Origin: Coriobacteriia bacterium | Lineage (GTDB): Bacteria; Actinomycetota; Coriobacteriia; Coriobacteriales; Atopobiaceae | DNA length: 64,000 nt | Assembly: GCA_030530145.1 (NCBI GenBank) | Contig: JAUMVN010000001.1 | Span: 124,001 to 188,000, forward strand | Direction of reading: 5' to 3' | Shown: one piece after another, positions 31,827 through 51,296 of the stretch | Position numbering within the stretch: the stretch's first letter is position 1 | Layout: the number at the start of each line of letters is the position of its first letter | Notes under the pieces: model-generated | What the model was told of the DNA's origin: nothing | The model's database searches: none | What the model saw: the letters and a program-made list of their open reading frames with translations, nothing else | Translations under genes and position numbers: made by a program

Positions 31827-32049
31827 CGCCCCGTAAATCACGGTTGCAGCAACCGGCGCGGCGAGACCGCCCCGTAAATCACGGTTGCAGCAACGATGGG
31901 GAAGAAATCGCCCCTCAAACGACGGTTACAGCAATCGTTTGATGCTGCAACCGGCGTTTAGGGGGCGAATCTTTAGCGACGATTGCTGTAACCGCGATCT
32001 CGGGGGCGCCCGGCGCTGTCTGCTTGCTGCAACCGGGCTTTAGGGGGTG
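31827..32049. repeat. Palindromic six-unit cassette A (223 bp)
   Basis: Three direct 26-bp units at 31827, 31868 and 31909 and three inverted units at 31942, 31983 and 32024. Each unit is CGCCCC, about eight variable bases, then CGGTTGCAGCAA (one base variable). Spacers are 15 bp, the centre 7 bp, the period exactly 41 bp. It occupies the gap between the terminator at 31764-31797 and the queA stop (20 bp away). No coding sequence. Same geometry as the cassettes at 48923 and 50440. Confidence 0.95.
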
Positions 32050-47712: not shown

Positions 47713-48648
47713 CTACTTGGAAGAGACCTTGCCGTCGGCGTCCTTGGACACCTTCATGTCGGAGACGGGGATGAAGCCCTCCTCCTCGACGAGCGAGCCC
47801 TGGACCTCATCGGAGAGCATGAAGTCGATGAACGCCTGGGTGGCCTCGTCGGCGTCGGCGGCGGTGTACATGTGCTCGTAGGCCCAGATGTTGAAGTCGC
47901 CGCTGCAGACGTTCTCGGCGGTCGGCTCGACGCCGTCGACCTTGAGGGCCTTGAACTTGGTGTCGTCGAAGTAGGAGAAGGCGAGGTAGGAGATGGAGCC
48001 CTCGGTGGCCTGGATCTTCTCGACGACGGTGCCGGAGGAGTCCTCCTCGGCCACAGGGGCGAAGGTGTCCGGGGCCTTCTCGCCGGCCAGGACGGCGGCC
48101 TCGAAGGTGGCGCGGGTGCCGGAACCGGCCTTGCGCTCGATGACCTGGATCTTGCCGGCGGTGCCGCCGACCTCGGACCAGTCGGTGATGGCGCCGGTGA
48201 AGATGCCCTTGAGCTGCTCGGTCGTGAGGCCGTCGACGTCGACGGAGGAGTTCACGATCGGGCCCATGCCGACGACCGCGACGGTGTTGTCGGTGAGCTT
48301 GGCGGCGTCCGCGGCCTCGAGCTTCTCCTCAGCGAACACGTCGGAGCGGCCGATCTGGGCCTTGCCGTCCTTGACGTCCGAGAGGCCCTGGCCGGAGCCG
48401 CCGCCGGTGATGGCGACGGTCACGTCGGGGTAGGCGTCCTCGAACTTGGTCGCGGCGGACTCGACGAGCTTCTGGAAAGAAGTGGCGCCGGAGCAGTTGA
48501 CGGTGCCGGAGACGGAAGCGGCGTCGGAGCCGGACTCGGAGTTGCCGGAGCCTCCGCAGCCGACGAGGCCGAGGCCGGCGACCGCGGCGAGCGTGCCGCC
48601 GAAGCCGGCGACGAACTGACGACGAGAGAGGCTATCGAGCTTGGACAT
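47713..48648 (-). CDS. pstS: Phosphate-binding lipoprotein PstS
   Basis: 311-residue solute-binding protein. The signal has a twin-arginine-like SRRQFVAGFGG and lipobox GLGLVGC, so it is probably exported (perhaps by Tat) and lipid-anchored at Cys32 or nearby. The mature part has phosphate-contact motifs GATSFQKL, GGGSGQG and RKAGSGTRATFE. ATG at 48648 follows GGAAGGAG. First gene of the pst run. Confidence 0.95.
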   Translation of the reverse strand: MSKLDSLSRRQFVAGFGGTLAAVAGLGLVGCGGSGNSESGSDAASVSGTVNCSGATSFQKLVESAATKFEDAYPDVTVAITGGGSGQGLSDVKDGKAQIGRSDVFAEEKLEAADAAKLTDNTVAVVGMGPIVNSSVDVDGLTTEQLKGIFTGAITDWSEVGGTAGKIQVIERKAGSGTRATFEAAVLAGEKAPDTFAPVAEEDSSGTVVEKIQATEGSISYLAFSYFDDTKFKALKVDGVEPTAENVCSGDFNIWAYEHMYTAADADEATQAFIDFMLSDEVQGSLVEEEGFIPVSDMKVSKDADGKVSSK

Positions 48649-48713
48649 GGATCTCCTTCCAATGGATTGCCGGCGCCCCGCACGCATGCTGGCTTCCGGC
48701 CGTGTCAAGGAGC

Positions 48714-48922: not shown

Positions 48923-49145
48923 CGCCCCTCAATGTGCGGCTGCAGCAATGGAACGTGTCTTGCCGCCCCTCAGATGACGGTTGCAGCAACACGGCGCCTC
49001 TTGCCGCCCCTCAGATGACGGTTGCAGCAATCCAACGTTGCTGCAACCGTCTTTTAGGGGGCGAGAAGCCCCGCTCTGCAGCTGCAGCCGCGCTCAAAGG
49101 GGCGGCATGACGGGCCCTATTGCTGCAACCGTTATTAAGAGGGCG
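48923..49145. repeat. Palindromic six-unit cassette B (223 bp)
   Basis: Direct units at 48923, 48964 and 49005; inverted units at 49038, 49079 and 49120. Same 26-bp unit, 15-bp spacers, 7-bp centre (TCCAACG) and exact 41-bp period as cassette A. The two middle direct units are identical to each other. It ends 9 bp from the stop codon of the frameshifted nuclease-like gene. Confidence 0.95.
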
Positions 49146-49154
49146 AGCGCTCGG

Positions 49155-50158
49155 CTAGACTACATTTCCGGCTCGCTCGAGCTCCCGGTAAAGCTCGATA
49201 TGCCTCAGCTTCTGACGGTACTCATACTCGGGGGAGCGATGGCGCCGAGGATAGCCCGCCTCAGCACGGGCAGCAGCGACGATATCCTCCATGTAGTTGA
49301 TGTTGCGATACAGCTCTCGGTTGATGCGGTACTCGGAGATGCCCATGGCCTTGAGCTCGTTTCCACGCACGGTGTCGGAAAGAACGCCTTCGCGCGTCAT
49401 GTGCGTCTCTTCGCCGTCGTACTCGAAGGCGACGGGGTTGGCCCCTGACCCCTCGTACGGGGCAATAAGGATATCCGGTTTGCGCAGGACCTTATTGCCA
49501 GAGCCGAGCCGACCAACCGCAAGAGGCTCGTTCATGGAAAGAAGCTTGAGGCCGTAACCTTTCTTCTTCGCGGGCAGGCAAAGCCTGAGCGCGAGCTTGG
49601 TCTCACGCGGAGAGGCCGAGCCGGGAAGGACAAGCGCCGCCGCGCGCCTCAGGGCCTTAACGCCATCGGCGCCCTTAAGCTCCCCAAGAAACGCCTTGAG
49701 CCGATCGGGATCCGTCAACGGGCGCGAACGTTGGACCAGGCCTCCATCGCGACCCGGCGCCAAGGAATAGGTGCCCATGAATTCGCACAGCACAGCACAA
49801 CAACGAGCTCAAGCTCGGAAAGGCACGTGGCGAGCTGGAGCGCCGTCAGTTCGGGGCCGCAGCACCACAGGCCTCTCCTCAACTGAAAGACGGATCCGAC
49901 AGGCAGCGACGAACCGAACACATGAGAAATGTAAGAGGCCTGATGGCGGGCCCCGCCGTGGTCAGAAGTAACGAACTCAAGAGGCTCCCCGGCGCGGCGC
50001 AGCGCCGAGCTCTCGCACATAAGCTCGCGAACCGTGAGCGCGTCGACCGGACGCCCCGGCGCGCAGAGCGCCGTCGTGTTCGTCGGTCGCTCAACGAGCT
50101 CAAGCTCCGGGTGGCGAAGCAGGCGCAGCGCTGTTTTATGTGAGAGCAGGTTATCCAT
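49155..50158 (-). pseudogene. Frameshifted AbiEi/DUF559-like nuclease-fold gene
   Basis: Two frames make one ~332-residue protein. The first (from ATG 50158, MDNLLSHKTALRLL) runs to ~49790. The second continues with LCEFMGTYSLAPGRDGG to TAG at 49155. The break sits in three tandem pentamers, GTGCT-GTGCT-GTGCG (49784-49798); removing one pentamer gives 999 nt, a clean open frame. The N part resembles the AbiEi-like middle region of actinobacterial proteins. The C part (KPDILIAPYEG...VAFEYDGEETH...RGNELKAMGI) resembles a DUF559/PD-(D/E)xK endonuclease core. No SD precedes the ATG; CAGACA-17-TAGTTA lies 12 bp upstream, so a leaderless mRNA is possible. May be dead or phase-variable. Confidence 0.8.
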
Positions 50159-50439
50159 AGGCAGACGATAACTAATCGGGAGCTCCTATGGTGTCTGACA
50201 TGCGATTTCTCTAGAGTTGTCTAACCGAATTCTGCCGGAATTCTTCCCGAGTTTTCAACATTGCCAGGTAGTTGCTCCGAGGAAGAAGCCTGATAAGAAG
50301 TCCGTCCGCGAGCCGCGAGGCCGCTCACCCTCCGAACCGCAACCGTTCAACCGACGCCCTCCACAGCCCCGCCACAAACGAACACCCTGCAAGGAATTCT
50401 TACAAAGAGGCCTGAACGAATGCGTCGGAAATTCGTCGT

Positions 50440-50662
50440 CGCCCCTCTGATGACGGTTGCAGCAACCCGCGTCCTCTACCCGCCCATCAGATGACGGTTG
50501 CAGCAAAGCGACAGTTCTTGTTGCCCCCTAAAGTGCGATTGCAGCAGTCCATCGTTGCTGCAACCGTCGTTTAGGGGGCAAGAAGCCCCGCCCTGCAGCT
50601 GCAACCGAGCTCAAAGGGGCAACTCAGCGGGACCAATTGCTGCAACCGTCACTAAGAGGGCG
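50440..50662. repeat. Palindromic six-unit cassette C (223 bp)
   Basis: Direct units at 50440, 50481 and 50522; inverted units at 50555, 50596 and 50637; identical geometry to A and B. The spacer between inverted units 1 and 2 (AGAAGCCCCGCCCTG) differs from that of B by one base, so B and C are closer relatives. It lies between the divergent nuclease-like gene and the marR gene. The preceding 50159-50439 holds only a GAATTC-NNNN-GGAATTC palindrome (around 50227) and the putative promoter of the nuclease-like gene. Confidence 0.95.
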
Positions 50663-50807: not shown

Positions 50808-51296
50808 ATGAGGATTTCTGACGAGAAGCTCGCGGAATGTCGCGCGAACGAGACCGTTGACCAGCGCATTCTTCACGCATTCGGTTACTTCGGCCACTAC
50901 ATGTTCGTCAAGCGCGGCGGGCTCGGCGGCAAGCAGCATGTGCTCAAGACGCTTCTGGGCTCCGGCGGCGAGATGACCCAGCGGGAGCTGCTCGAGGAGA
51001 TGAGCATCAGCTCGGCGTCGCTCTCCGAGGTGCTCGGCAAGCTCGAGCGCGCGGGCCTTATCCGCCGCGAGCGCTCCGAGGCCGATAAGCGCCAGCTCGA
51101 GATCGTGCTCACCGAAACGGGCACCGGCCTCGCCCGCACCATGGTGGAGAACGAGCGCGAGTTCGAGGCCAACGCCCTCTCTATCCTCTCGGACGACGAG
51201 AAGCGCGACCTGCTCGCGACGCTCGACCGCATCTTCGACTACTGGAGAGAACACGAGAAACTAGACAAGGAGGCTTGCCCGTGCAGCAAGAACTAG
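50808..51296 (+). CDS. MarR-family transcriptional regulator
   Basis: 162 residues. The winged helix spans ~45-110 (MTQRELLEEMSISSASLSEVLGKLERAGLIRRERSEADKRQLE in outline), followed by dimerisation helices. The C-terminus CPCSKN is Cys-bearing. ATG at 50808 has GGAGGT at 7 nt. Its 3' end overlaps the first ABC gene. It probably represses the exporter operon through the palindrome at 50706-50732 and is relieved by a substrate. Confidence 0.93.
   Translation: MRISDEKLAECRANETVDQRILHAFGYFGHYMFVKRGGLGGKQHVLKTLLGSGGEMTQRELLEEMSISSASLSEVLGKLERAGLIRRERSEADKRQLEIVLTETGTGLARTMVENEREFEANALSILSDDEKRDLLATLDRIFDYWREHEKLDKEACPCSKN

Follow-up and report, generated by a model that had tools for sequence, protein, structure and literature searches.

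The window analysed here comprises 64 kb of a single contig from a genome of 2.47 Mb in 57 contigs. Judged from matches to Collinsella, its genes appear to have their closest relatives among the Coriobacteriales. It contains a composite locus in which a gene for a putative nuclease lies between two palindromic arrays, cassette B (48923..49145) and cassette C (50440..50662), neither of which is assigned a strand. Each array consists of three inverted and three direct copies of the 26-bp unit TTGCTGCAACCGTCGTTTAAGGGGCG, spaced exactly 41 bp apart around a 7-bp centre, and cassette B scores 130.5 bits against model R1. The nuclease reading frame is located on the reverse strand; its stop at 49155 lies 9 bp from cassette B and its start at 50158 lies 281 bp from cassette C. 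The cassette positions and both gaps had been predicted correctly to the base. The composite is bordered on the left by pstS (47713..48708, reverse strand) and on the right by a gene for a MarR-like regulator (50811..51296, forward strand), which is followed by two ABC exporters. With these two genes as its neighbours, the nuclease gene has no AbiEii partner toxin gene beside it.

The nuclease gene of the window is not one open frame. An N-terminal frame (49715..50158, reverse strand), which matches the family profile with an E-value of 2e-17 and encodes a predicted AbiEi-like domain, overlaps in a different frame with a C-terminal frame (49155..49793, reverse strand), which encodes a predicted EDxHD/Vsr-like catalytic domain with the motif residues SPxE, PD, E, H, D and R. 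The two frames differ because of a triple GCACA tandem repeat at 49785..49799 (no strand), of which two copies would be in frame. Provided that the assembly is correct, this copy of the gene is frameshifted according to its sequence.

Cassettes B and C are 77% identical in direct register, whereas the identity of either to any other cassette is at most 66%, and judged from these sequences they are sister copies, as had been proposed. Their spacers, AGAAGCCCCGCTCTG and AGAAGCCCCGCCCTG, are as quoted in that proposal, but AGAA-type +1 spacers are also found in other cassettes.

The genome contains 18 cassettes of the window unit, B and C and 16 copies without a gene, namely cassette A (31827..32049, no strand), a solo array flanked by two convergent genes, and 15 others. 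One of the 18 is split across the ends of contigs C13 and C20 and was counted once. These contig ends overlap by CAAGAATTC inside the cassette; therefore, the two contigs are probably adjacent in the genome. The 16 solo cassettes are intergenic and are often found between convergent genes or genes of the same direction. At one place (L059, contig C27, 7030-7640), a palindrome of a different family, that of the L135 gene, but no gene lies between two window-type cassettes, forming a nested cluster of two cassette families. The arrays are far beyond chance expectation: a model of the inner four units found 18 places in the genome with E-values down to 1e-32, and in 60 relatives (E ≤ 0.001) a single weak match in G030 (E 4e-4). 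This match was rejected as a window-type cassette, since it belongs to a different, regularly repeated CRISPR-like array. The locus concerned (L093, contig C7 of G030) is a long regular array of palindromic repeats about 67 bp apart, probably a CRISPR, which weakly matches the cassette model. The sole outside match to the unit itself (L108) was taken as chance, as it lies in transporter-like coding sequence and is not picked up by the cassette model. The window unit was absent from all other species searched.

Within the unit, positions C4, C11 and G22 are identical in 93 of 93 copies and positions 14, 15, 19 and 20 are free. Units in mirror positions are no more alike (similarity 0.817) than neighbours on the same strand (0.816), and therefore stem pairing is not specifically selected. 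Cassettes A, B and C came nowhere near any Rfam gathering score for a known structured RNA, and a structured RNA or obligatory hairpin was rejected on both grounds. From their sequences, the units look like candidate protein-binding sites.

This property is also accommodated by the main rival to the interpretation developed below, autoregulation with a small regulon, to which we give roughly one chance in five. Here the cassettes would be operators: the AbiEi-like protein would repress its own gene via the upstream array, the downstream copy would insulate or terminate, and the solos would be regulon sites or terminators of host genes, all without mobility. AbiEi antitoxins do bind their own promoters at multiple inverted repeats (PMC7319586), the units resemble protein sites in their fixed and free positions and in stem partners that are not extra similar, and several of the solos are located where convergent genes end. 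However, a matching copy past the stop of the gene is left unexplained by regulation, as are the conserved nuclease motif residues of the protein.

These residues were identified in a family of homologous genes, of which 15 members were detected in the genome of the window and which is present in 44 of the 60 relatives. In an alignment of 21 members, E123, S180-P181-x-E183, G197-G198, N207, D228, E244, H250 and D259 are invariant, including the EDxHD residues E183, D228, H250 and D259. None of the Pfam, NCBIfam and PADLOC models matched the family convincingly, with weak matches to MTES_1575 and DUF559. The window gene reaches 14 bits against Pfam DUF559/MTES_1575, for which the cut-off is 38.2; the best of 21 homologues has an E-value of 4e-4, and none of the Coriobacteriales members tested reaches the cut-off. 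Pfam AbiEi_4 is touched by only one member (E 0.03), and no match to Y1 (PF01797) was found in the window gene or the 21 homologues. A collection of phages gave no match to one homologue, L133.

The predicted structure of a homologue is confident (pLDDT 90, pTM 0.90). Its second half was best matched by the catalytic domain of I-Bth0305I (3r3p; Z 7.9, 2.6 Å, 96 of 97 residues) and also matched Vsr (1vsr; Z 5.8). For the first half, modelled alone, the top row was AbiEi residues 67-195 (6y8q; Z 8.0, 118 residues aligned, 3.7 Å), and the match to 1zel had a Z of 5.0. The AbiEi match starts at residue 67, past the DNA-binding winged helix, which is absent from the modelled part; distant actinomycete homologues have a longer N-terminus than the Coriobacteriales members. 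With Foldseek on its own, no match to the PDB or the viral library had an E-value below 0.001, and all Z values are middling, so that the models indicate fold and not function. The protein is predicted to consist of an AbiEi-like domain and an EDxHD/Vsr-like nuclease domain. Of the original description as a DUF559-type or AbiEi-like gene, the AbiEi-like fold is upheld as a prediction and the DUF559 similarity as a weak one, but the gene is frameshifted and scores below the Pfam cut-off.

No other homologue carries the exact window unit (TTGCTGC) within about 1.5 kb, and a search for the exact unit apparently refuted a pairing of gene and cassette. This reading was overturned by a comparison of flanks that is independent of their sequence, since each gene has its own palindrome sequence. 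In the sister species G001, the homologue is bracketed by a different unit with the same 41-bp period; therefore, flanks were compared without assuming a sequence, by matching the 600 bp upstream of each homologue to its own 600 bp downstream (score ≥ 20). Matching own flanks were found for 28 of 49 homologues versus 6 of 2401 mismatched pairs. When family genes and controls of similar length were drawn from the same two genomes, 16 of 20 family genes (15 of 19 plus the window gene) passed versus 4 of 138 controls, and the four passing controls include the RAYT gene of the genome and the direct neighbour of a family gene. The difference between family and control genes has a Fisher p of about 6e-15, a loose value as the homologues are not fully independent, and the odds of matching flanks in the family are of the order of 100 over controls. 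A further sample gave matching flanks at 18 of 27 loci, and among additional Coriobacteriales loci 6 of 15 testable genes passed. Part of the flank match at L147 is a duplicated tRNA region, and a lag-41 signal at L134 was discarded because it came from a run of N. Local inverted repeats alone separated family (94 of 154) and control flanks (45 of 228) more weakly than flank matching, because terminators probably score too.

Outside the Coriobacteriales, clear palindromes beside both start and stop were observed in 4 of 9 distant actinobacterial homologues (L218, L219, L223 and L226), not counting a low-complexity flank match at L224; about half of the distant relatives sampled have no matching flanks. 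All three named examples, from Arthrobacter sp. StoSoilB13, Arthrobacter sp. ERGS1:01 (WP_054009319.1) and Tsukamurella tyrosinosolvens (WP_170181047.1), have palindromes, and that of StoSoilB13 measures 57 bp with copies 79% identical. One distant bracketed homologue carries a DUF559 annotation. The sequence comparisons thus support bracketing by gene-private palindromes as a characteristic of this gene family within the Coriobacteriales, one that recurs in other Actinomycetota. The proposal first made for the window locus, that palindromes and a DUF559-type nuclease gene are paired as in REP/RAYT, is in this way supported at many loci beyond it. With each gene compared to its own repeat, the pattern that the original proposal had named as speaking against it, homologues regularly lacking cassettes and cassettes regularly present in genomes lacking the gene, was not observed.

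A coincidence at the window locus, in which two ordinary interspersed repeats happen to flank an unrelated gene, is very improbable. The exact window unit does flank no other homologue, and by our own estimate about 18 copies in 2.47 Mb would give roughly 0.1-0.2 close pairs by chance; yet homologues have matching palindromes of their own, at odds of the order of 100 over controls and replicated at independent loci.

The palindromes follow their genes. Flanks of different genes do not match one another, genes at 80-95% identity have palindrome arms in common, and at genes of 60-70% identity at the same locus the arms are partly changed while neighbouring genes are 91-95% identical; the arms thus diverge more rapidly than the genes around them. 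Mapped onto the protein tree, the 41-bp layout is confined to one clade (L133_32, L022, L023, L024, L129 and the window gene), with one weak exception outside it, L032. The own unit of G001, TGCCAACGGCCGCA..., has the 41-bp period and brackets its homologue in the same layout, and two solos are also present. Family palindromes are 57-225 bp long and often form arrays; those of actinomycetes measure 57-64 bp. A centre motif, AAAACCGCAGGT or the near form AAAACCGCAGGTAG, occurs in palindromes with unrelated arms (e.g., L142, L143, L136 and L045) and was present in 19 of 100 family versus 9 of 228 control flanks; this is only suggestive of a common palindrome-centre motif across family flanks. 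For regulation by the encoded protein, a separate and unrelated unit for each paralogue is a further unexplained feature.

Copies without a gene, as originally proposed for cassette A, are not restricted to the 16 of the window unit; solos were also found in G001, Tsukamurella and Arthrobacter. In PLSDB, the Tsukamurella palindrome gave 20 matches in eight records, the StoSoilB13 palindrome 11 matches in two records and the ERGS1:01 palindrome 10 matches in one record; palindromes may count once per strand in these numbers, which would mean fewer sites. The three Tsukamurella solos examined all lie between convergent genes with no nuclease gene nearby. For the paralogues in the window's own genome (429 kb examined), two families have two extra places each and most have none.

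Comparison between species showed that whole elements are present or absent and change orientation. In G001, which is about 83% identical in neighbouring operons, a homologue lies at the same pst locus in reversed orientation with arrays on both sides, and in G020 pstS adjoins marR with neither nuclease gene nor array in between. Conversely, G001 has an element beyond tRNA-Gly/tRNA-Cys where the genome of the window has 149 bp and no element, and cassette A is absent from the corresponding intergenic interval of G001. After the tRNA-Cys element of G001 (L147, 5592-7590), a second tRNA-Gly with a similar promoter region is located, which is not there in the genome of the window. At a second reversed locus, the flanks are swapped in L165 compared to L183 and L185, and therefore the bracketed unit has the opposite orientation with respect to the genes beside it. 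Bracketed genes are thus reversed at two or more loci (L165 vs L183 and L185; the window at 48.9-50.7 kb vs L129), as if flipped between palindromes. Such presence, absence and reversal of whole units is another observation for which a regulon offers no explanation.

Both occupied and empty loci are seen, and whole palindromes lie on both sides of the gene, but the boundaries are not alignable. Intergenic divergence blocks base-exact boundaries; therefore, we infer insertion, loss and inversion. No target-site duplication is visible at the cassettes, the G001 site being too diverged to align, and no precise excision was seen. Comparison of related loci, which had been suggested as a check, consequently yielded elements present or absent between species but no clean empty site that could be aligned to show a target duplication. 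In many homologues the locus is conserved between species, so that there is no sign of recent movement. A circular Collinsella plasmid record of 1785 bp (L233, NZ_OY725722.1) was considered as an excised circle and rejected, as it contains no palindrome and looks like a chimera, possibly formed in assembly, of a family gene and transposase-like sequence.

Fast divergence at fixed loci, together with the many diverse paralogues per genome and the predicted AbiEi-like fold and restriction-like nuclease domain, would also suit a nuclease useful to the host, e.g., in anti-phage defence or as a toxin-antitoxin-like addiction gene, with the palindromes as hot spots of recombination through which loci gain and lose the gene. 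We consider this improbable, more so than a regulon: no PADLOC model matches the family at a meaningful score, the window locus has no AbiEii-type partner gene, and the cassettes without a gene would have no obvious role.

The explanation that we prefer, by a little over an even chance, is that the composite belongs, in decayed form, to a selfish system of genes and their cognate palindromes, similar to REP/RAYT but with an unrelated enzyme. Its observed basis is the bracketing, the gene-private sequence, the recurrence across species, the solos for several families, and the presence/absence and reversal of elements; recognition, cleavage and copying or movement by the nuclease are what we infer beyond this. 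In such a system, the nuclease gene would be enclosed by two copies of one palindromic cassette, and its product would recognise this cassette. The protein, probably in dimeric or multimeric form, would bind to the cassette units and would nick or cut at or beside them, and repair of the break could copy or rearrange cassette-gene-cassette units and solo cassettes. Gene and palindrome would then persist as a selfish pair, in a manner similar to RAYT transposases and their REPs. In the window, the gene would have been broken by the frameshift, leaving 18 cassettes of its unit in the genome.

Several results speak against this selfish-system reading. Most paralogues of the same genome have no dispersed copies in the 429 kb, the N-terminal domain of the Coriobacteriales members aligns in the models only past the AbiEi winged helix, neither target duplication nor precise excision was seen, many homologues stay at one locus across species, about half of the distant relatives sampled have no matching flanks, and the Z values are middling. 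The originally proposed interpretation as a REP/RAYT-like mobile system is supported in part. More tentatively, and with somewhat less than an even chance, AbiEi-domain nucleases of Actinomycetota may form a separate selfish class, in which an EDxHD/Vsr-type endonuclease and not a transposase maintains and spreads cognate palindromes, and in which specificities co-diverge so fast that each paralogue in the same genome has a private recognition sequence.

The nuclease-gene family is widespread in actinobacteria and unstudied, and its pairing with private palindromes was unreported in the open-licence literature searched. If the proposal is true, a large set of 'hypothetical' and DUF559 actinobacterial genes, including those of gut Coriobacteria, become one testable system, and REP/RAYT biology gains an independent counterpart built on a different enzyme. 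Moreover, many natural pairs of a nuclease and a private long recognition sequence would become available, in which each gene predicts its own binding site.

Among known proteins, DUF559 and REase_MTES_1575 of Actinomycetota share weak profile similarity and common motif residues with the family, and distant homologues of this group are bracketed too; however, the Coriobacteriales members tested stay below the Pfam cut-off, and these families have no assigned function. AbiEi antitoxins of type IV toxin-antitoxin systems (S. agalactiae AbiEi, Rv2827c) resemble the predicted N-terminal region in residues 67-195. Their own promoter contains paired inverted repeats of 23 bp to which they bind (PMC7319586), and these compare with the 26-bp units found here. 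Unlike AbiEi, the Coriobacteriales members begin past the winged helix and are fused to a predicted nuclease, no AbiEii gene is present at the window locus, and the repeats of the family are found on the downstream side as well, and also at loci far from the gene.

The EDxHD homing endonucleases and Vsr have the predicted catalytic fold, the order E, D, H, D and the multi-domain layout in common with the family. As a dimer, I-Bth0305I occupies a target of nearly 60 bp (PMC3943268), similar in length to the actinomycete palindromes of 57-64 bp. In contrast to homing endonuclease genes, those of the family are free-standing, outside introns and inteins, and are bracketed by whole palindromes instead of a split target.

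RAYT genes are always located between two inverted REPs, REPs are scattered, and the repeat class tracks the gene class (PMC2817692). The window system is not a RAYT, because its enzyme is not Y1. The only Y1 gene of the genome (L062, contig C52, 18377-21709; gene at 1066-1881) is RAYT-like and lies between inverted GGTTGCAACTCTCATTTGAGAGCTTTGGGGACG with a 35-bp period, at another locus and with a different repeat, the half-sites of which loosely resemble the window unit. A RAYT as mobiliser of the cassettes was rejected, since the Y1 loci of relatives have no such units. Compared with REP/BIME and RAYT (TnpA-REP), the enzyme of the family is not Y1/HUH, the palindromes have a greater length (57-225 bp) and often form arrays, and copy numbers range from a few to 18, whereas REPs usually exceed 100. 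What both have in common is a nuclease gene between two palindromes of its own class, with further repeats that are also intergenic and often form inverted clusters.
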